Below, piece by piece: positions 52,531-62,800 of a stretch of DNA of 64,000 bases. The stretch spans positions 328,501-392,500 of the forward strand of contig NZ_CP011479.1 in the NCBI RefSeq assembly GCF_001011155.1. The letters are read 5' to 3'. Source of the stretch: Hoeflea sp. IMCC20628 (GTDB taxonomy: Bacteria; Pseudomonadota; Alphaproteobacteria; Rhizobiales; Rhizobiaceae). Positions within the stretch are counted from its first letter, which is position 1, and every line of letters begins with the position of its first letter. A model generated the notes under the pieces. That model ran no database searches. It was given only the letters and a program-made list of their open reading frames with translations, and was not told where the DNA came from. Position numbers and translations under genes: made by a program.

Positions 52531-53310
52531 GTGCTTCCCGAAATTGCATTTTTTGACGCCATCGCCGAAGCAGCGGCGGCGGAGACACTTCCCCGTTTTC
52601 GCATGGCTGTCACCGTCGACAATAAGCATGTCGGTGGATTTGACCCGGTAACCGAAGCTGACCGCGAAGCGGAAAAAGCAATCCGGCGACTGATCACCGA
52701 GCAGTATCCGGAGCATGGCATTCTGGGCGAGGAGCATGGTGATGTCGGACTGGACCGGGACTATGTCTGGGTCATCGATCCTATCGATGGAACCCGTGCT
52801 TTCATTTCCGGCTTGCCTGTCTGGGGTACGCTGGTGGGGCTTTACCACAAGGGACGAGCCGTGATGGGCATGATGGATCAGCCATTCACCGGCGAACGTT
52901 TCATCGCCACGCCGGGCAGCGCTTTCGTGCGGCGCAACGGCCAGACCACACCTTTGAATTCCCGGAAGGGCGTTTCGCTGGAACAGGCGACAATGATGAC
53001 CACGTCGCCATCAATCTTCCCGCCGGACCTTGAGCCATCCTACAAACGCGTCGAAAGCGCCGTTCAATTGGCGCGCTACGGCTGCGACTGCTACGCCTAT
53101 GCGATGGTCGCCTCCGGGCACATCGACCTGGTCGTCGAATCCGGTCTGAAGGCTTATGATGTCGGTGGATTGATTTCTCTTGTGGAGCAGGCTGGCGGTG
53201 TCATGACGACCTGGAGCGGTGATCGCCCCGAACATGGCGGCAGTATTGTCGCCAGCGGTTCGCCAGAGCTGCATGAGGCTGCGTTGGAATTACTCAATCG
53301 GGTTGAGTAA
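52531..53310 (+). CDS. hisN: Histidinol-phosphatase, inositol-monophosphatase family
   Basis: A 259-residue metal-dependent phosphatase. The motifs DPVTEADREAEKAIR (about residues 36-50), GEEHGD near 70, WVIDPIDGTRAFISG near 87-101 and a C-terminal AYDVGGLISLVEQAGG are complete. The FISGLPVWGT segment is typical of HisN, the histidinol-phosphate phosphatase of alphaproteobacteria, rather than general SuhB. Start is GTG at 52531 after CGGAG. Its end overlaps the convergent hydrolase gene by 17 bases. Confidence 0.85.
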   Translation: MLPEIAFFDAIAEAAAAETLPRFRMAVTVDNKHVGGFDPVTEADREAEKAIRRLITEQYPEHGILGEEHGDVGLDRDYVWVIDPIDGTRAFISGLPVWGTLVGLYHKGRAVMGMMDQPFTGERFIATPGSAFVRRNGQTTPLNSRKGVSLEQATMMTTSPSIFPPDLEPSYKRVESAVQLARYGCDCYAYAMVASGHIDLVVESGLKAYDVGGLISLVEQAGGVMTTWSGDRPEHGGSIVASGSPELHEAALELLNRVE

Positions 53311-54280
53311 GAACTTTTTGGACTGGTTGTGATGTCTGGTCGGGCGGGATGAAGGCGTCAATCGCGGCCAACGCCGCCAAGCGATAGCGGTCTGATTCCT
53401 GAAGAATTTCATGGCGGGCGCCATCGATCATGATTGCTCTTCCGGCGCGGAACCGATTGCCGAGGTTCTCGATGGCTTGCGGCGCAACAATCGGGTCATT
53501 GCCCGCTCCGATCAGCAATGTCGGCACGTGGATTTGATCGAGGTGCTCGAACCGGTTGATGCGGTCCATCGCCCCAAGCATTTCATTGACCCAGCAGACA
53601 GTCGGCGGGCCGAGCCGCAATTCGGGATGCGCCAGATAGAGCGCCTGATTGCGGGCATAGCGATCGATGTTAGTGGTCAAGGCATTGCCCGCAAATGGCT
53701 GCGGGAAGCGATCCTTGCCTGAGCTGAGCCATCCTAAGCCTGCCATGCGCAATACCCTGGTGATCAGGCGGGTGCCCCATGTCGGGATCGGTTGATTGGA
53801 GAGTTCGACAAAGGGGGCGATCAGCGCCATTCGTTCGATGCGGTTGGCAAGCTTTGGCGCCATTGACAGCGCAACGAGCGCACCCATGGAATGGGCGACC
53901 AGACAAAACGGCAATCGGGTCTCGGGCAGCACGATGGTTTCGAGAAAAATCGACAGATCGGCTTCCATATCCCGAAACCGGCGGAGGTGACCGCGGAAGG
54001 GGTTTTTCAAAAGCCGCTGCGAGCGGCCTTGCCCGCGCCAGTCAAAGGTCGCAACCCAGAGTCCGCGGTCTGTGAAATGACGGATGGTTTCGTAGTATTT
54101 TTCAATGCACTCATTTCGACCGTGCAGCAGAACCACGGTTCCTGCCGCCACGGAAACCTCTGATTTGAAGATTGCATAACGCAGTCTTTTGCCGCCAACA
54201 CCGTCGAACCAGCCGACCACATGGTTGCCGGGCACCGGATTGCCATCAGTCTCGATCAGCTCGGGGAGATCATCGCTCAT
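53294..54280 (-). CDS. Alpha/beta hydrolase, lysophospholipase (PldB-like) type
   Basis: A 328-residue serine hydrolase. The oxyanion region VVLLHGRNECIEKYYE is near residues 50-65, the nucleophile elbow LVAHSMGALVAL near 127, the Asp in LLIGAGNDPIV near 255 and the His in DGARHEILQE near 283. It fits the Hydrolase_4 / lysophospholipase L2 group acting on monoacyl lipids. No signal peptide. Overlaps hisN tail to tail. Confidence 0.84.
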   Translation of the reverse strand: MSDDLPELIETDGNPVPGNHVVGWFDGVGGKRLRYAIFKSEVSVAAGTVVLLHGRNECIEKYYETIRHFTDRGLWVATFDWRGQGRSQRLLKNPFRGHLRRFRDMEADLSIFLETIVLPETRLPFCLVAHSMGALVALSMAPKLANRIERMALIAPFVELSNQPIPTWGTRLITRVLRMAGLGWLSSGKDRFPQPFAGNALTTNIDRYARNQALYLAHPELRLGPPTVCWVNEMLGAMDRINRFEHLDQIHVPTLLIGAGNDPIVAPQAIENLGNRFRAGRAIMIDGARHEILQESDRYRLAALAAIDAFIPPDQTSQPVQKVLTQPD

Positions 54281-54516
54281 AGGGATCGGGATTAGTGCTT
54301 CCCTCGGAGAAGGTCAAAAGGAAAAAGTCCGGAGCCGCATTGGATGCGGCTCCGGCCAGGTGCCTGGAACAGAAGGGACGGGATGTTCCCGGCGGATCAG
54401 GCCGTGTTTGCCTGACAGGTGTGAGGATGCCAGATGGCAGATGAACCAGTGCCGAACAGGATATTCACCTGGTATTCACTTGACCAGCCGCGGATTGCCG
54501 GTCGTGACGCAAAGAT
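54281..54516. other. Gap between lysophospholipase-like gene and hsp20 promoter
   Basis: Contains the leftward terminator above. A leftward open frame (54397-54678) ends just before it and reads to a C-terminus GTGSSAIWHPHTCQANTA; I do not recognise it, and its right end lies antisense to the hsp20 leader. No other gene seen. Confidence 0.35.
54323..54355 (-). terminator. Leftward terminator with no assigned gene
   Basis: CCGGAGCCGCAT and ATGCGGCTCCGG form a perfect 12-base stem with loop TGG; on the minus strand the stem is followed by ACTTTTTCC. It would end a leftward transcript from 54356 onward, where no recognised leftward gene exists. Confidence 0.75.
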
Positions 54517-54545
54517 CTTGAACCCGACGCGAGGAGTTCCCACAT
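54517..54545 (+). promoter_or_regulatory. RpoH (sigma-32)-type promoter of hsp20
   Basis: CTTGAA (54517-54522), 17 bases, then CCACAT (54540-54545). This resembles alphaproteobacterial heat-shock promoters and would start the RNA near 54552, giving a leader of about 100 bases, the length expected for a ROSE element. Confidence 0.6.
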
Positions 54546-54551
54546 TGGCTT

Positions 54552-54653
54552 GGCAGGCGCCGAAGATCGGGTCTGCTGGCCGGATTGCCGCCCTATGCGG
54601 GGCAGTCCAGATGTCAAAACGCAAACACCAAGTTGCTCTTAAGGAGGACACAC
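54552..54653 (+). ncRNA. ROSE-like RNA thermometer in hsp20 leader
   Basis: The leader ends with TTGCTCTTAAGGAGGACA (54633-54650), in which TTGCT faces the Shine-Dalgarno AAGGAGG. This anti-Shine-Dalgarno pentamer (U-U/C-G-C-U) is the hallmark of ROSE elements of rhizobial small heat-shock genes, where imperfect pairing melts on heating. Upstream is a CCGC / GCGG hairpin (about 54587-54601). Structure is predicted by eye. Confidence 0.72.
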
Positions 54654-55121
54654 ATGCGTCACGTTGATTTTTCCCCACTCTACCGATCCACTGTCGGCTT
54701 CGACAAGTTGCTGACCATGCTTGATACCCTGGCCCCGCCGGATCAGGCGCAGTCCTATCCGCCCTACAACATCGAACGGACCGGCGAGACCACCTACCGC
54801 ATCACCATGGCGGTGGCGGGTTTTGACGAAGCCGAGATTTCCATCGAAGCGCGCGAACATGCGCTGACGGTCAAGGGTGAAAAGGCTGAGGACAAGGAGG
54901 TTTCCGGTTCGGAATACCTCTATCGTGGGATCGCCAAGCGTGCGTTTGAACGCCGCTTCCAGTTGGCTGACCATGTCGAGGTGACCGGTGCATCATTGCG
55001 TAACGGTCTGCTGCACGTGGATCTGGTTCGCGAGCTTCCGGAAGCCATGAAGCCGCGCCGCATTGCCATCAGCAGCGATGCAGGTGACGAGCCCAAGCAG
55101 ATCGAAGCAACAAAGGCCTGA
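54654..55121 (+). CDS. Small heat-shock protein, Hsp20/IbpA type
   Basis: A 155-residue alpha-crystallin-domain chaperone that holds unfolding proteins. N-terminal FSPLYRSTVGFDKLLTML is the rhizobial class A pattern; the crystallin domain spans about residues 35-125 (YNIERTGETTYRITMAVAGF, and the conserved L-LHVDLVRELPE); an IxI motif (IAI) is in the tail KPRRIAIS. AAGGAGG is 6 bases before ATG 54654. Regulation by heat at two levels is suggested by the RpoH-like promoter and ROSE-like leader. A terminator follows. Confidence 0.93.
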   Translation: MRHVDFSPLYRSTVGFDKLLTMLDTLAPPDQAQSYPPYNIERTGETTYRITMAVAGFDEAEISIEAREHALTVKGEKAEDKEVSGSEYLYRGIAKRAFERRFQLADHVEVTGASLRNGLLHVDLVRELPEAMKPRRIAISSDAGDEPKQIEATKA

Positions 55122-55150
55122 TCTCATTCCCCCAAGCCGGTGAGGCTCTG

Positions 55151-55178
55151 TGGCGCTCAGGGAACTGAGCGCCATTTT
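55151..55178 (+). terminator. Terminator of hsp20
   Basis: TGGCGCTCAG and CTGAGCGCCA form a 10-base stem with loop GGAA, followed by TTTT, 29 bases after the hsp20 stop. Confidence 0.9.
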
Positions 55179-55231
55179 CATATCCCGGGGGTGCTGGTTT
55201 GCGTGGTTTCAGGTCGAGGTTTGCCGGAAGC

Positions 55232-55795
55232 TCAACGGCGCTTTGCCAACAGGGCGTCAATCGAAAGCAGCCCCGGGCCTTTGATGGCTATGACCAGCAG
55301 CGGTACCAGCCACAGCAAACGCTGGTCGGCGATGATGCTGTCGGGGAACCGGTCGAACAATGCGCCAATGTGCTCCGCACCAATCTGGTGCACCGTGATA
55401 TCCACGAATGTCTGCACGGTAATGAATCCGATCATGCCGAGGGCTGCTATCCGCGAGAACAGGCCGATGACAATCAGCAGCGGTAAAATGAACTCCGCAT
55501 ATGTCCCCATGAAGACAATCAGGCCCCATGGGAAGAAGGACACCGCATCGACGTCACCTCCGGCAGCTTCCACAGCCGGCAGCGCGATCTGGTAATAGGC
55601 CCCGGACGAGATCGTGAAAAACCCGAGCAGGCCTTCGCCGACCTTGGTTTTCGCGGAATTGAGGAAATAGGCCCACAGCACTGCGGCAAAGGTGAAGCGG
55701 GCAATGAGACCGAGCAACCAACTGTCGCCCATCCGTTCGAGAAAGCCGAAGACGCGACCATGAAGATCGGTGAGAAAATTGATTGCGGATGTCAT
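55232..55795 (-). CDS. DoxX-family membrane protein of bufferin operon
   Basis: A 187-residue membrane protein with four or five hydrophobic spans, of the DoxX family. The segment GLIVFMGTYAEFILPLLIVIGLFSRIAALG is typical. In bufferin-type operons a DoxX protein is the usual fourth gene; its role is not settled and may be a quinone- or redox-linked membrane component. Start 55795 overlaps the upstream DUF2063 stop by ATGA, showing cotranscription. Confidence 0.87.
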   Translation of the reverse strand: MTSAINFLTDLHGRVFGFLERMGDSWLLGLIARFTFAAVLWAYFLNSAKTKVGEGLLGFFTISSGAYYQIALPAVEAAGGDVDAVSFFPWGLIVFMGTYAEFILPLLIVIGLFSRIAALGMIGFITVQTFVDITVHQIGAEHIGALFDRFPDSIIADQRLLWLVPLLVIAIKGPGLLSIDALLAKRR

Positions 55796-56595
55796 GCGGT
55801 GTGCTCCGAATTTGTCCGGCCGAGCGAACATGCTGAAAAAATGCCAGCTTCAAGCATGGCCGAAATGGCTGATGGCAAGTCGAACTCCGGATGCTGCTCA
55901 AGAGTGAGGCTGGCAGCTTCCCCGAGCGCCTTGCCGACAATCAGGGCCTGGAAAAAAGTCGGGGCACCGGGCGGCAATTGCCGGACTTGCACGTCGTAGT
56001 GCGGCCGTGTGATCACCGCATCTTCTGGTTCCAGCGGCCGGATGTTATCGAGTGGCCGCTCTTCGCGGCTGGCCGAGAAAATCGATACCGACGCGTAGCG
56101 GCTTTCAACAATGCGTGTCGCCGGATGCGGCGTGAACGTCACCTCACCGAGCCGCTCTGGCGGGATCGTGCCGAGGCTTTCGGGCAGCAAGGGGGGAGCG
56201 TCGGCAGCGTGATATGCATCGAGCCACGCTCGTTCCAGTCTTGCAATGTCAGGCAAGTACAGCAGTTTGGACACTGGTTCGAAGCGTTCAAGGAACGCTG
56301 CAAAGTCATCACCATATTCGAACATGAGTGGTGAGCGGGGAGGGTTTTCAGTCAGGTAAACCCGCGCCATGTCACGAAAGAAGTATTCTCCGACAAGTCG
56401 CTTGACGGCAGGGAAAATGCTTCCAAGCGCATCGATCAGACCCACGGTCATATTGTTACGGTAAACTGCGAAACGTTTGCGGGCGCCTTTGCCGCGCGGT
56501 CCGACGACACCTTCGGGCACCGGCAAATCCGAATTTAACAGCGCAGCGCCAAATCCCAGCTGCGACATCCCTGTGGGTACGTCATCCCACGGCAT
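55792..56595 (-). CDS. bufC: DUF2063 protein, bufferin maturation partner (BufC-like)
   Basis: A 267-residue protein with the DUF2063 N-terminal domain (KRFAVYRNNMTVGLIDALGS, GEYFFRDMARVYLTENPP, LPDIARLERAWLDAYHA). In bufferin and related methanobactin-like systems this protein partners the DUF692 enzyme and helps present the precursor peptide. Its start overlaps the bufB stop by 14 bases; an alternative ATG at 56568 would remove the overlap and nine residues. DoxX follows. Confidence 0.83.
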   Translation of the reverse strand: MPWDDVPTGMSQLGFGAALLNSDLPVPEGVVGPRGKGARKRFAVYRNNMTVGLIDALGSIFPAVKRLVGEYFFRDMARVYLTENPPRSPLMFEYGDDFAAFLERFEPVSKLLYLPDIARLERAWLDAYHAADAPPLLPESLGTIPPERLGEVTFTPHPATRIVESRYASVSIFSASREERPLDNIRPLEPEDAVITRPHYDVQVRQLPPGAPTFFQALIVGKALGEAASLTLEQHPEFDLPSAISAMLEAGIFSACSLGRTNSEHTA

Positions 56596-57499
56596 GGCGA
56601 GACCCGAGCAAAGCCGGCCCCAACCGGGCAAGGATGGCATCGGCGAGTTGAGCCTCTCGGCGCAGCACCGGCCATTCGGGAACATCATTGTCCCACTCGA
56701 TCAGGGTCGGCATCGCGCCCGCCTGGCTGATGACAATTTCATAGAGTTTCCACACGGCATCAGCGACAGGGCGGTCATGGGCATCGATCAAGAGCAGATC
56801 GCCTTCGTCATCGACATCTTCGGCGTGGCCGGCGAGGTGGATTTCCTCGACCAGTTCCAGCGGAAAATCCCGCAGGTAATGCATCGGCTTCCAACCGTGA
56901 TTGGTGGCAGAAACGAAGACGTTGTTGATGTCGAGCAGCAGCCCGCAACCGGATTTGCGGGCTATTTCAGCGATGAAATCGGTCTCGCTCATTGTCGTCT
57001 GTTCAAACGCCACATAGGTCGACGGATTTTCAATCAGGATTCGACGTTTGAGCCGGTCCTGAATCTGACTGACATGGGAGACTACCCGTTCGAGGGTCTC
57101 GGCATTGTAGGGGACTGGCAGCAGGTCGTTGAAATAGCCTGCGTCATGACTGGACCAGGCGAGATGTTCGGACACCATTGCCGGTTCGTAGCGTTCGACG
57201 ACTTTGGCAAGGCGTTCCAGGTGATCGGGATTTAAGCCGCTCTCAGAACCGATTGAGAGGCCTACTCCGTGAACAGATAACGGAAATCTGGCACGAATGG
57301 CTTCAAGTGCACGGTGCGCCGGGCCGCCATCACCCATGAAATTTTCGGCGTGGACTTCAAGAAAACCGATACTGTAATCATCCGCCAGTATCGCGTCGAC
57401 ATGTTCGGTCTTCAATCCTGCCCCCGCACGAGGCGGGAGCGGGATGTTCGGAAAACGGGAAGCCCCGGCAATCGGCGAATGAGGGGCGGATTGCGTCAT
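56582..57499 (-). CDS. bufB: DUF692 iron enzyme, bufferin maturation (BufB/MbnB-like)
   Basis: A 305-residue TIM-barrel enzyme of the DUF692 / MbnB family, multinuclear iron oxygenases that modify cysteines of ribosomal peptides. Barrel metal-ligand motifs are seen in order: LEVHAENFMG, GVGLSIGSE, SEHLAWSS, ILIENPSTY, LLLDINNVFVSATNHG and EIHLAGHAE. In bufferin pathways it converts selected cysteines of the DUF2282 precursor to thiooxazole-type groups. Start 57499 follows GGGAG at 7 bases. It is 32 bases after bufA. Confidence 0.9.
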   Translation of the reverse strand: MTQSAPHSPIAGASRFPNIPLPPRAGAGLKTEHVDAILADDYSIGFLEVHAENFMGDGGPAHRALEAIRARFPLSVHGVGLSIGSESGLNPDHLERLAKVVERYEPAMVSEHLAWSSHDAGYFNDLLPVPYNAETLERVVSHVSQIQDRLKRRILIENPSTYVAFEQTTMSETDFIAEIARKSGCGLLLDINNVFVSATNHGWKPMHYLRDFPLELVEEIHLAGHAEDVDDEGDLLLIDAHDRPVADAVWKLYEIVISQAGAMPTLIEWDNDVPEWPVLRREAQLADAILARLGPALLGSRHAVG

Positions 57500-57531
57500 G
57501 TCGAGACTCCCGTTCATCAAGTGGTTTCCAA

Positions 57532-57837
57532 TCAGGCAGGCACGTCGCGATCAAGCGCTTCAAGGGAGCCCATGCGGCCGCCTTCGAGGCTCATCGTGGC
57601 ACAGGTGCCTGCGTCAACGTTTTTCCAGGCGTTGCCCTGGTAATCAACCTTAGACGTGCCTGCACATGTAGTGCCAGGTCCTGCAGCGCAATCATTCTTG
57701 CCAGCCAAAGCGACGCCGTAGCATTTTTCGGTGGCTGCGAGCGCGCCATCGGTTGAGGCGAGGAAGGTTGCGCCCGAGATGGCCATGGCCACTGCGCCTG
57801 CGAGTGCGGATGCACCGATAAGATTTTTCTGCGACAT
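57532..57837 (-). CDS. bufA: Bufferin precursor peptide (DUF2282)
   Basis: A 101-residue exported peptide precursor. Residues 1-35 are a signal peptide ([15 protein letters not shown] ... GALA cleavage). The mature part has the four conserved cysteines of DUF2282: [26 protein letters not shown] and AGTCATM. DUF2282 members are the bufferins, secreted modified peptides that bind and store excess copper or other metals in the periplasm; modification here is inferred from the neighbours. AAGGAGA precedes the start. It heads bufA-bufB-bufC-doxX. Confidence 0.9.
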
Positions 57838-58176
57838 GCTGTTCTCCTTGAATGTATTATTCAACCCAATTTCCGGAATTTTCGGTCCCGGCAGATGGAG
57901 AATGGCAAATTGCACAATAACATGGAAATCAAGCACACGTTATTCAGCATCACTTGCTCGTGAGTTCAACGTGATTGATTTCGATGTGAAATCATGCGCA
58001 TCGGCAGTGTCTTTTTTATGCTGCGGTGCACTCTGAGAATGCGGCTGGTGTGCCGTCAATTGTCGTCCTGGATGCCCTGGTTCTCTGATGCGAGCTTCAT
58101 CTCGATCCGGATAATGCGCACCTGCAATATTCATAAGTGTCGCGCAAAACTGCAGTGTGATTTTGCGCGACCTGTA
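57838..58176. other. Bufferin promoter region and downstream end of threonine aldolase
   Basis: These 339 bases hold no recognised gene. They must contain the bufferin promoter, but I see no convincing sigma-70 or ECF-type match. The right end has the perfect hairpin at 58139-58171. Confidence 0.4.
58139..58171. repeat. 11-base inverted repeat after threonine aldolase gene
   Basis: GTCGCGCAAAA and TTTTGCGCGAC form a perfect 11-base stem with an 11-base loop, 5 bases after the leftward gene's stop. The T/A bases are inside the stem and no T-run follows, so it is a strong 3' hairpin rather than a classic terminator. Confidence 0.6.
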
Positions 58177-59226
58177 TCAGGCAATCAACTCAATAAATTG
58201 ATCGACCATATCTTCGGTCGTCGCAAAGCTGGTGACCAGTCTGAGCATGGTCTCGTCTGCGCCGACAAGATGGGACGCGGAGCGAGGCGGGGTCCATTCA
58301 TAAAACATCGCGCCTTTCGCCATCAGTTCTCTGGACAAGGACTTTGCCAGGATCGGAAAGGTCTCATTGGCGGTGCTGTCCCATGCCAACCGCGCCTGAC
58401 TGGAACCGGCTATGCCGGTGCGAATGCGGTCGGCCATCGCGTTGGCGTGTCGGGCCAGATCGAGCCAGAGGTCGTTTTCGAAATAGGCATCGAACTGGGC
58501 GGCAATGAAGCGGCTCTTGGAAAACAATTGCGCCGCACGCTTGCGGATGAAAGGCGCCTGAGTGGCCATGGCGGGGTCGAGAAACACCAGTGCTTCGGCG
58601 CACCAGCAGCCATTCTTGGTGCCGCCAAAGGAAACGATGTCGACACCAAGATCAACGGTCATCTGCGATGGCGTCAGATCAAGTGCGACGAGCGCATTGG
58701 CGAAACGGGCGCCATCCATGTGCAGCGGCAGGCCATGGGCCTTGGCGATCATCGAGATCGCACGAATTTCACCGGCTGTGTAAACCGTGCCCGCCTCTGT
58801 GGCCTGGGTCAGGGTAATTGCCATGGGTTGGCCGCCATGAACAAAGTCAGCGGGAAAACGGCCAATTTCGGCTTCAAGAATGGCGGGGTCCATCTTGCCT
58901 GCTGATCCGTCCACCGGGGCAAGTCGTGCTCCGTGGCTGAAGAATTCCGGGGCGCCGCATTCATCGGCAATGACATGGGCTTCGCGGTGGCAGAAGGAGA
59001 CGCCGCCTGGCCTGTTGACGGCAGACAGCGCAAGCGAATTGGCAGCAGTGCCAGTGCCAACGAAGAAGACCGCAACTTCCCGCCCGAAGATATCGTTGAA
59101 GGTTTTTTCGACCTTTCGATCCAGATCGCCCGCGCCATAGGCTGCACTGTAGCCGGTCGAGTGGGCCGAAAGCGATGTGGAAATGGCAGGGTGGGCGCCG
59201 GCCCAGTTGTCCGAAGTGAAAATCAT
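58177..59226 (-). CDS. Threonine aldolase family protein (low specificity)
   Basis: A 349-residue PLP enzyme of the beta-eliminating lyase / threonine aldolase family, which splits threonine or related beta-hydroxy amino acids to glycine and an aldehyde. Motifs: GTGTAANSLALSAV near residue 56, HREAHVIADECGAPEF near 81, LPLHMDGARFANALVAL near 165, and the PLP lysine in VSFGGTKNGCWCAEA near 200. Length is normal. Faces away from gltB. Could also contribute glycine to the folate economy with sarcosine oxidase; that is inference. Confidence 0.87.
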   Translation of the reverse strand: MIFTSDNWAGAHPAISTSLSAHSTGYSAAYGAGDLDRKVEKTFNDIFGREVAVFFVGTGTAANSLALSAVNRPGGVSFCHREAHVIADECGAPEFFSHGARLAPVDGSAGKMDPAILEAEIGRFPADFVHGGQPMAITLTQATEAGTVYTAGEIRAISMIAKAHGLPLHMDGARFANALVALDLTPSQMTVDLGVDIVSFGGTKNGCWCAEALVFLDPAMATQAPFIRKRAAQLFSKSRFIAAQFDAYFENDLWLDLARHANAMADRIRTGIAGSSQARLAWDSTANETFPILAKSLSRELMAKGAMFYEWTPPRSASHLVGADETMLRLVTSFATTEDMVDQFIELIA

Positions 59227-59815
59227 AACAGGTCAAATCTCCGAGGCTTGTGTTGCATAGGCTATTGCATGATTTGCCGGGTTTTTCAAAACGCCTGGCG
59301 GGGTTGGTCGTCGGCTGAAGCGGCGCCAGCGAATTGCTGCCGTTGTCGCCCCTCGCGGGCTCGAGTTTGATGTTTCAACAGCAAAACACCGCCAACCAAC
59401 GCAATCACGTAATTATCTTGCGTGGCATCGATTGGTTTGATCATTTACGGTCGCGACAGTCAGGTTTTTTGGGTTCTGTATCTTGCGCAGTTAGAGACAT
59501 TCTGTCATAGATCACTCGAAATAGGACAGCCTTACTGTCCTATTTGTGTCTGCTTTGGCCAGCTGGCTAAGGCCGATGTGGACGCAAGGGGCTGCAATCG
59601 GCAATCTGTCGTTTTTGCAATCAACCGGTTCAAGGTGACCGTTTCGCTCCTTCATGGTACAAAACGCGCCGCGCGCCCGCGATTGCCGGGTGAAGCACGA
59701 CATGCACACGAGGCCAGACGACAGATGCATCCGGAACGCAAGCGTCGCCGCACCCGGCGGTGGCGGGGTGCGGGCCGGAATCAACCGCTGCGGCGGTCCT
59801 GAAGGAGGAATGAAG
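59227..59815. other. 589-base leader/intergenic region upstream of gltB
   Basis: No protein is recognised; open frames here have unlikely compositions (strongly Arg-rich near 59700-59800). It separates two divergent genes and contains a perfect inverted repeat at 59520-59544. A long gltB leader is possible. Confidence 0.45.
59520..59544. promoter_or_regulatory. Perfect 10-base inverted repeat in gltB upstream region
   Basis: AATAGGACAG-CCTTA-CTGTCCTATT lies 271 bases before the gltB start. It could be an operator or a leader hairpin; it is not followed by a T-run on either strand. Confidence 0.55.
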
Positions 59816-62800
59816 ATGGCAGACCTTTCACCATCTCGGACGGATGTGAGCGCTGGTACGGCAAATGCTGCAACCAAGCCTGCCGCCGTGCAGACCTTTG
59901 GATTGCCGGCCAAGCAGGGCCTCTATGATCCGCGCAACGAACATGATGCCTGCGGCGTCGGTTTTGTCGCGCATATGAAAGGCGTGAAGTCGCACCAGAT
60001 CGTCCGCGACGGGCTGTTCATGCTCGAAAACCTCACCCATCGTGGTGCGGTTGGCGCGGACCCGCTGATGGGTGACGGCGCTGGACTTCTGGTGCAGATA
60101 CCGGACCGGTTTTTCCGCGAAGAGATGGCCGAACAAGGCGTGACGTTGCCCGAGGCAGGCGATTACGCCGTAGGTTTTGTCTTCATGCCGCAGGACGAAG
60201 CACTCTGTGACCACCTCAAGGGCATTATCGCCGAAGGTGTCGCCTCCGAAGGGCAGACGCTACTCGGTTTCCGCGACGTGCCTGTCGACAATTCATCCTT
60301 GTCCAAAGCGCCTGAAATCGCGGCAACCGAACCCCGCCATGTTCAGGTGTTCATCGGCCGTGGTGAAAATGTTGAAGATCAAAACGTCTTCAAGCGCCAG
60401 CTCTTTGTGCTCCGGAAGGTGATTTCGAACCGGGTTTATGACGAGACCGATGGCCGCGACAACGGCTTCTATTTCGTCTCTTTGTCGACACAGACCATCG
60501 TCTACAAGGGGATGTTCCTGGCCTATCAGGTCGGCGCCTATTACAAGGATCTGAGCGATCCACGGTTTGAATCGGCTGTCGCGCTGGTTCACCAGAGATT
60601 TTCGACCAACACGTTCCCATCGTGGAAACTCGCACATCCCTACCGGATGGTGGCGCATAATGGTGAAATCAACACGCTGCGCGGCAACGTCAACTGGATG
60701 GCCGCGCGCCAGGCCTCGGTATCGTCGCCCTTGTTTGGCAGCGATATCTCGAAGCTCTGGCCGATTTCCTATGAAGGCCAGTCCGATACAGCCTGTTTTG
60801 ACAATGCGCTCGAGTTTTTGCTCCGTGGCGGCTATTCCATGGCTCACGCGGTGATGATGCTGATCCCGGAAGCCTGGGCAGGCAACACCTCGATGAGCGC
60901 GGACCGCAAGGCGTTTTACGAGTATCATGCGGCCTTGATGGAGCCATGGGACGGTCCGGCGGCGGTCGCCTTTACCGATGGCGTCCAGATTGGCGCCACG
61001 CTCGATCGCAACGGGCTGCGCCCTGCACGCTATATCGTCACCAATGATGACCGGGTGATCATGGCGTCTGAAGCTGGCGTTTTGCCGGTGGATGAAAGCT
61101 CGATCATCAAGAAGTGGCGGCTGCAGCCTGGCAAGATGCTGCTGATCGACATGCAGGAAGGCCGCATCATCTCCGATGAAGAGGTCAAGTCGGGACTGGC
61201 TGCCAAGCACCCCTATCGTGAATGGCTGGAACGCACCCAGTTGATCCTCGAAGACCTGAAGCCGGTCGAGCCACGGGCTTTGCGCAAGGACGTGTCGCTG
61301 CTCGATCGCCAGCAGGCTTTCGGCTACACGCAGGAAGACACAAGGATCCTGATGTCGCCTATGGCGACCACCGGACAAGAGGCTATCGGTTCGATGGGAA
61401 CCGACACCCCGATCTCGGCGATGTCGCAGAAATCGAAGCTGCTCTACACCTATTTCAAGCAGAATTTCGCGCAGGTAACCAACCCGCCTATTGACCCGAT
61501 TCGGGAAGAACTGGTGATGAGCCTGGTGTCCTTCATCGGGCCGCGACCGAACCTGCTCGATCACAAGGGTGCTGCGAAGAAGAAGCGGCTCGAGGTTCGT
61601 CAGCCGATCCTTACCAATGGCGATCTCGAGAAAATCCGCTCCATCGGCCACACCGAAGACCGTTTTGACACCAAGACGCTGGACTTCACCTATGCGAGAG
61701 AGAAGGGCTCGGATGGCATGGAAGCGGCGCTGATAAGGCTTTGCGACCGGGCCGAAGAGGCTGTGACCGGTGGTTACAACATCATTATCCTCTCTGACCG
61801 TCAGATTGGCTCGGATCGGATTGCGATTCCGGCGCTGCTGGCGACGGCGGCTGTGCATCATCACCTGATTCGCAAGGGTTTGCGCACATCGGTAGGCCTC
61901 GTGGTTGAATCTGGCGAGCCGCGCGAGGTCCACCATTTTTGCTGTCTGGCCGGCTACGGTGCCGAGGCGATCAATCCCTATCTGGCATTCGATACCCTGT
62001 TGGACATGCACAAGCGCGGCGAATTTCCGCCGGAAGTCGACAAGTACGAAATTGTCGCACGCTATACCAAGGCAATTGGCAAGGGCATCCTCAAGGTGAT
62101 GTCGAAGATGGGGATTTCGACCTATCAGTCCTATTGCGGTGCGCAGATCTTCGATGCGATCGGCCTGTCGAGCGATTTCGTCAACACCTACTTCACCGGT
62201 ACGGCGACAACGATTGAAGGCGTAGGATTGGCTGAGGTCGCGACAGAAACCGCGGAACGTCACCGGCTGGCCTTCTCCAATGATCCGGTGCTGGCCACAT
62301 CCCTGGATGTCGGCGGCGAATATGCCTACCGGATGCGCGGTGAGGAACACGCCTGGACACCGGATGCTGTGGCAGCACTACAGCATGCGGTGCGCGGCAA
62401 CGCCCAGGATCGCTATCGCGAGTTCGCCGATATGGTCAACCGCTCAACCTTGCGGATGAATGCCATTCGCGGATTGTTCGAGATCCGCACAGGCGAGATT
62501 ACCGGTCGCACGCCTGTTCCACTCGATGAAGTCGAACCGGCGGCAGCCATCGTGCGACGGTTTTCAACCGGCGCAATGTCATTCGGCTCGATCAGCCGGG
62601 AAGCGCACTCGACGCTTGCTGTTGCCATGAACCGGATCGGCGGCAAGTCGAACACCGGCGAGGGCGGCGAAGAGCCGGATCGTTACCTGCCGCTTTATGG
62701 CGGTGGCGCCAATCCTGAACGCTCGGCGATCAAGCAGGTGGCCTCGGGCCGCTTCGGGGTGACGGCCGAGTATCTGGTCAACGCCGACATGATCCAGATT

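Follow-up and report, generated by a model that had tools for sequence, protein, structure and literature searches.

How is a bufferin operon switched on in a genome with no match to the anti-sigma factor described for its homologues? The question is raised by four genes (bufA, bufB, bufC and doxX, in this order) on the minus strand of the chromosome of Hoeflea sp. IMCC20628, within a stretch of 64,000 nucleotides (contig NZ_CP011479.1, positions 328,501 to 392,500), hereafter the window, whose own numbering is used for all coordinates. The genes are ordinary, being those of one more Buf1 operon of the published family; the promoter, as read from the sequence, is where the operon appears to differ from homologues with described control, and it looks new. 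Since its putative operators resemble published CenR sites, we propose control by the CenK-CenR envelope-stress system, and we give CenR about an even chance of being the regulator of the Hoeflea bufA operon. The promoter matters more than the genes, for it offers a testable link between a copper-binding ribosomally synthesised and post-translationally modified peptide (RiPP) and the envelope-stress response. It also suggests how the operon may be controlled in bacteria without the described anti-sigma factor, and presumably without the sigma factor too, and its map predicts a transcription start and the bases to mutate.

An initial annotation, made from the letters of this DNA, had described a complete bufferin-type operon with members of DUF2282, DUF692, DUF2063 and DoxX. 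The profile search placed all four proteins as named: the Buf1 bufferin precursor BufA (57532-57837, 101 residues; PF10048 DUF2282, 84.5 bits, cut-off 22.4), the MNIO (DUF692) bufferin maturase BufB (56582-57499, 305 residues; PF05114 MbnB_TglH_ChrH, 347.1 bits, cut-off 25), the DUF2063 partner BufC (55792-56595, 267 residues; PF09836, 84.3 bits, cut-off 27.2), and a DoxX-type membrane protein (55232-55795, 187 residues; PF07681), the last barely above its cut-off (24.0 versus 23.6 bits). These are the genes at the core of the Buf1 clusters in print (PMC12452194). The gap between bufA and bufB is 32 bases; with the ATG starts used, bufB and bufC overlap by 14 bases and bufC and doxX by 4, exactly as had been annotated, and from these overlaps a single transcript would be expected. 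The annotation had not stated the strand and had not noticed the promoter.

The description of BufB as MbnB-like can be made more precise, in that the protein passes the NCBIfam equivalog NF050167, "MNIO family bufferin maturase" (382.7 bits, cut-off 310); no NCBIfam model matched BufA at an E-value of 0.001. A profile search of the whole genome retrieved a single DUF2282 match and a single MNIO match, both at this operon. Membership of the oxazolins (HvfA) or of the methanobactins was considered and rejected, the respective models scoring below their cut-offs. Fontiphorin/oxazolin (EGKCG) clusters, the "captophorins", likewise combine an MNIO with a PME1 partner and install 5-thiooxazoles (PMC13097082). 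Their precursor, however, belongs to a different family with repeated EGKCG, a motif not present in the BufA sequence, and the Hoeflea BufC and DoxX lie far under the HvfC and HvfX cut-offs (29 bits against 142, and 21.7 against 80). The published Buf1 family fits every feature tested, the signal peptide being judged by eye, and we are highly confident that this is a chromosomal Buf1 bufferin operon.

The control of two homologous operons has been described. The Buf1 operon of Caulobacter vibrioides/crescentus has the same families in the same order (precursor, MNIO, DUF2063 partner, DoxX) and, judging from gene content, would correspond to CC3254-CC3257; it is controlled by SigF, a sigma factor of extracytoplasmic function (ECF) group 16, with an NrsF-type anti-sigma factor, from a GTAACC-N16-CGAA promoter (PMC3511200). 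In Sinorhizobium meliloti, also a member of the Rhizobiaceae, SMb20530-SMb20527 encodes a DUF692 and DUF2063 pair and is a target of the ECF16 factor RpoE7/EcfR7 (PMC6180224), whereas the Hoeflea operon occupies a chromosomal slot between a PF01212 gene and hsp20. The gig operons of Cupriavidus and Legionella have likewise been published as bufferin clusters (PMC12452194).

NrsF had no match in the Hoeflea sp. IMCC20628 genome or in any of the 18 Hoeflea genomes searched, 15 of which reach 90% completeness with contamination no higher than 5%; the Caulobacter control was positive, and the search covered NrsF, not ECF16 sigma genes. Among the 61 relatives compared, seven harbor NrsF, in three cases next to the operon. 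Moreover, GTAAC-N15-18-CGAA is absent from the 153 bases preceding the Hoeflea bufA. The lack of sigma and NrsF genes is not new by itself, given that the survey of Buf1 clusters reports such genes in them without claiming that all have them (PMC12452194). On these sequence data we judge that control by an ECF16 sigma/NrsF pair does not apply to the Hoeflea operon. In the place of the Caulobacter motif, it has a promoter composed of a box, a predicted -10 and a hairpin, together with two CenR-like sites.

The box, TTGATTTCCATGTTA (57918-57932, minus strand; consensus TTGATTTCCAATTGA, core string TTGATTTCC), would lie at about -40 to -26 and occurs once in the genome. It is followed by a predicted -10, CATTCT (57899-57904), which would place the transcription start at about 57892, and by an inverted repeat, CCGGGA-CCGAAAA-TTCCGG (57873-57891), predicted to form a hairpin where the transcript would begin. 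The Shine-Dalgarno sequence of bufA, read from the sequence as AAGGAG, is at 57844-57849, and AGGAGA is invariant in the 18 Hoeflea genomes. Possible masking of this site by an upstream TTCTCC in Hoeflea, judged by eye, is not general and is not claimed.

A 59-base element stands above bufA in all 18 Hoeflea genomes, matching 39 to 45 of its 45 fixed letters against a maximum of 26 in 20 shuffles of each sequence, with the element derived from the same 18 sequences that it scores. A strict search returned one site at bufA in each genome plus two strays, and the reversed control returned two. Its core, the consensus TTGATTTCCAATTGA, was retrieved at a level of at least 12 of 15 letters in 40 of 101 loci, versus 5 of 2020 shuffles. 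A held-out set of 100 loci was then drawn from the Rhizobiaceae, in which 104 of 199 genomes have DUF2282; earlier places were excluded, part of the new loci come from genera already present in the first set, and a genome may contribute two or three loci. Here bufA was located in 98, and the box was present in 44 of these. The ECF16 motif was found in none of the 44 loci with the box, versus 31 of the 54 without it; thus, box and ECF16 motif never occur together in the held-out loci.

Pooling all loci (box in 87 of 203) gave 84 distinct box-bearing promoters, 66 of them from outside Hoeflea, kinship being reduced by dropping identical sequences only; box base frequencies were computed over the 66. 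In box numbering, position 30 is A in 83 of the 84 promoters and position 34 is T in 65, a pattern that would fit a -10 with A at -11 and T at -7 and, taken as such, implies a start at about position 41. Two other readings of the region were discarded. One is a plain sigma-70 promoter: a consensus scan of 54400-58400 gave one match, on the wrong strand and no more than in shuffles. The other is a FixK/FNR box, whose form is TTGAT-N4-ATCAA, the second half of which is not visible in the box base frequencies.

The hairpin shares the register of the box. A hairpin scoring at least 14 and starting at box positions 39 to 46 (mode 42) is found in 57 of the 84 promoters, compared with 4.3 in shuffles, and it is built from 30 different 5-nucleotide arms. 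In the held-out loci it stands in the pre-set register in 28 of the 44 box-bearing promoters (2.55 expected), and an earlier count had it in register in 15 of the 18 Hoeflea promoters and in 15 of 23 from elsewhere. Because this register is fixed and the distance from box to ATG varies from 79 to 162, the hairpin is tied to the promoter rather than to the gene, as expected of a structure with which the message begins. Within Hoeflea, just two of its six pairs vary in both partners (83.3% of cells paired, with a covariation of 0.210 versus 0.138 in shuffles), RNAalifold on the 18 sequences gave a weak consensus of -2.3 kcal/mol, and Rfam returned nothing at gathering scores in 53000-60500. The main argument for the hairpin is that its position stays fixed from genus to genus while its arms differ; any function that it has is inferred, as is the transcription start.

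Upstream of the predicted -10 lie two sites of the form T(C/A)AC-N6-[GT]TGA, 21 bases (two helical turns) apart. The distal one, TCAC-GAGCAA-GTGA (57950-57963, minus strand), would be centred at about -65 from the predicted start, and the proximal one, TAAC-GTGTGC-TTGA (57929-57942, minus strand), at about -44, overlapping the box. The distal site begins 31 bases upstream of the box; it is found there in all 18 Hoeflea genomes and, with at least six of its eight letters, in 36 of the 66 other promoters (1.06 expected). The proximal site, as T[ACG]RC-N6-KTKA ending inside the box, is present in 63 of the 84 distinct promoters (0.0042 of 3827 control positions), and both sites are present in 41. 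Promoters of the ECF16 type resemble them in this respect: 35 of 45 distinct ones have TCAC-N6-GTG no more than 60 bases ahead of GTAAC (0.1 expected), at a distance of 25-26 bases in 24 cases and 18-19 in six (e.g., loci L183, L186 and L192). Furthermore, TCAC-N6-GTGA with at least seven of eight letters lies within 220 bases of the start in 61 of 111 box-less bufA loci, versus 6% of shuffles. Our reading is that one shared regulator may act over two kinds of core promoter.

As to which regulator this could be, the putative operators resemble published CenR sites. In S. meliloti, a CenR site at srlA, AGTCAC-N6-GTGACT, was defined by gel shift and promoter mutation (PMC9561847). Its TCAC-N6-GTGA operator, centred at -42 and likely acting as a class II site, recurs in the Hoeflea promoter as a pattern match; srlA is, however, an unrelated gene, the outer flanks of the repeat differ, and the Hoeflea bufA promoter combines two sites with a 5' hairpin. 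The CenR of Rhodobacter sphaeroides recognizes TGA-N8-TGA, with sites including TCACCTCCTCGTGAG and TCGCAGGATCTTGAT, and CenKR is widely conserved in alphaproteobacteria (PMC9275681). According to the scheme that we favor, an OmpR-type regulator of the CenR kind would most likely switch the operon on from the two operators, centred near -65 and -44; the -10 on which it acts would be an ordinary one, and the message would open with the hairpin. Extended to the whole group, the proposal is that the CenK-CenR regulon takes in the Buf1 bufferins of the Rhizobiaceae and of families close to it, with a CenR site upstream in both promoter classes, that is, the ECF16 class and the Hoeflea type (tandem CenR sites, a sigma-70-type -10 and a conserved hairpin, with no use of the ECF16 sigma factor). 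We hold this wider proposal to be as probable as its negation; if true, copper buffering would be wired to envelope damage.

Several observations weigh against this scheme. The two promoter classes do not cover everything, since 23 of the 54 held-out loci without the box also lack the ECF16 motif, and among the 66 box-bearing promoters from outside Hoeflea 30 have no distal site (at least six of eight letters), 21 no proximal site and eight neither. With the box taken as a -35, the spacer would be 22 bases, which does not make a plain sigma-70 promoter and thus points to an activator. A single TCAC-N6-GTGA in 64 kb is the chance level, and the case for the operators is accordingly one of conservation in register. 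The flanks of the distal site (C-TCAC and GTGA-T) and its spacer, with no C in third place, depart from the AG-TCAC-NNCNNN-GTGA-CT of S. meliloti, and of the R. sphaeroides CenR sites just 17 of 31 fit a relaxed TNRC-N6-NTKA. In the accessible parts of the two papers, the one-mismatch scan of the S. meliloti genome lists srlA, SMc01226, SMc00517 and chvI and no bufferin operon (PMC9561847), and the R. sphaeroides study contains no mention of DUF692, DUF2282, DoxX or copper (PMC9275681).

Among the papers listed by a literature search with most subscription journals outside its coverage, none seems, by title and term counts, to link CenR or CenKR with bufferin, DUF692 or DUF2282; a review treating the CenR of Rhizobium etli has, in its accessible part, the word buffering and no bufferin. 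No site motif was found in the available text of the Brucella CenR paper (PMC10746171). For TTGATTTCC, no listed title concerned bufferin promoters, and PMC7755780, on a two-component system, contains the string in 16S-gene oligonucleotides only.

The same promoter might instead be bound by another OmpR-family regulator, or by a metal-specific two-component system, whose TGA-type half-sites are shared with CenR, the operon being an otherwise ordinary bufferin operon. An interval of about 10 bases between half-sites is a typical trait of OmpR-family regulators (PMC9275681), the box-bearing class conserves TTGATTTCC more than either CenR-like site, and the occurrence of the box once per genome would suit a dedicated regulator. 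Nevertheless, the distal TCAC-N6-GTGA has the very arms shifted by the S. meliloti CenR, the presence of TCAC-N6-GTG in 35 of 45 ECF16-type promoters means that the site is not peculiar to the box class, and no regulator gene was noted right next to the operon in the window. We regard this alternative as plausible but less likely than not. An ECF sigma factor of another group, using GATAACG or TTGATTTCC as its -35, appears quite improbable. It would account for the resemblance of TAACG to the GTAAC of ECF16 promoters, at a similar distance after TCAC, and the Caulobacter and Sinorhizobium homologues are ECF16 targets; but the 44 box-bearing held-out loci are all devoid of GTAAC-N15-18-CGAA, the Hoeflea genomes are all devoid of NrsF, and the near-invariant A30 and the common T34 look like a sigma-70 -10.

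Independently of the promoter, one may ask whether the peptide serves copper at all, rather than another metal or stress (gold, cadmium, chromate, oxidative or sulfur stress). The homologous "gig" operons owe their name to gold induction, DoxX hints at other stresses (both PMC12452194), and chromate, dichromate and cadmium elicit a response from the homologues in Caulobacter (PMC3511200). Against this, binding of both Cu(I) and Cu(II) and a growth benefit when copper is in excess have been reported for the Caulobacter Buf1 (PMC12452194), and we consider a role other than in copper handling unlikely.

Coming back to the copper-buffering peptide, its chemistry, copper binding and cysteine roles are transferred to Hoeflea by homology. 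The four conserved cysteines reported by the initial annotation are present in BufA as C39, C50, C58 and C79, all downstream of the signal-like stretch, and the pattern recurs in 100 of 103 distinct related loci (the misses being L108, at a contig end, L141 and L167). Which of them are modified, a question that the annotation had left open, is largely answered in print for Buf1, in which a disulfide joins the first cysteine to the last and the modification, carried by the central ones, is a copper-binding thiooxazole (PMC12452194), a structure backed by PMC13097082. By analogy, C50 and C58 of the Hoeflea BufA are predicted to become thiooxazoles and C39 and C79 to form a disulfide. BufA would thus be made with a Sec signal peptide; BufC would present it to the iron enzyme BufB, which would convert C50 and C58 to 5-thiooxazoles; after export the outer cysteines would pair, and the modified peptide would buffer excess copper in the periplasm, with DoxX as a membrane accessory.

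Residues ~1-34 of BufA look by eye like a Sec-type signal peptide (an early lysine, a hydrophobic stretch, and ALA-A before the domain). BufB retains H77, E111, H112, E157, D190, H221 and E268, which are identical in all 103 distinct BufB sequences compared; its closest named relatives are ten Hoeflea records, at 84-89% identity, with one more from H. poritis at 71%. The AlphaFold2 model of BufC, obtained from 26 sequences, has a pLDDT (predicted local distance difference test) of 92.1 and a C-terminal alpha/beta region, the expected RiPP recognition element. Foldseek gave it three matches at E <= 0.001, namely TglI (8hi7_A and 8hci_A) and NGO1945 (3dee), with TM-scores by query of 0.50-0.59 and spanning nearly the whole chain of the predicted structure; TglI and NGO1945 are known partner proteins of MNIO-type enzymes, which bears out the annotated role of BufC as a partner. 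The DoxX model (pLDDT 83.5) has five helices of at least 18 residues.

Concerning the distribution of the operon, bufA and bufB were found in the same 44 of the 61 relatives, including all 18 Hoeflea genomes; bufC and doxX are also in place in these 18, and all four genes are therefore genus-wide in the genomes searched. The family is a large one, DUF2282 being counted in 4072 assembled genomes (PMC12452194, Table 3). In the window, the upstream neighbour of bufA, 339 bases away, is a PF01212 gene (58177-59226, minus strand), which we take to be threonine aldolase-like, and beyond doxX lies a convergent hsp20 (54654-55121, plus strand).

This slot was surveyed in 36 of the 44 operon-bearing genomes (G043, G044, G045, G047, G050, G052, G059 and G060 were left out). 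The aldolase-like gene adjoins the operon upstream on the same strand, with hsp20 convergent past doxX, in 25; it comes after doxX instead in five, from five other families; of the remaining six, two have the operon elsewhere and four lack the pairing. Among the 31 operons in or at this slot, 26 have the box at a level of at least 12 of 15 letters and none of the 31 genomes has NrsF (39 genomes cross-tabulated); L055 is a further slot operon with the full promoter element. In six of the 17 operon-free genomes, the aldolase-like gene and hsp20 stand 95-190 bases apart, which looks like an empty site, and in four more they are convergent at 815-2254 bases. The two genes adjoin without the operon as well, and the aldolase-like gene is 339 bases off here; for these reasons it was rejected as a functional part of the operon and is treated as a mere neighbour.

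Some minor observations concern the slot and the precursors. In G059 the aldolase-like gene stands beside one bufA copy. At G034:C5:190068-192321 there is no bufferin, the gap between the aldolase-like gene and hsp20 is 2254 bases, and something else may fill the slot. Rhizobium loci such as L124, L128, L129 and L131 harbor a tandem bufA-like pair before bufB, the first being the weaker match, and L080, L125 and L155 encode Buf1 precursors with six cysteines, the two extra ones in a C-terminal extension. Past the Pfam match, BufA ends in a tail like GSLEPLxRDLP (57532-57570, minus strand), which recurs in many alphaproteobacterial bufferins; the Rhizobium precursors compared are without it. 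This tail (as RDxP) and a long type of DoxX tend to co-occur: out of 100 loci, with kinship ignored, 48 have both and 40 neither, the mixed cases numbering 3 and 9.

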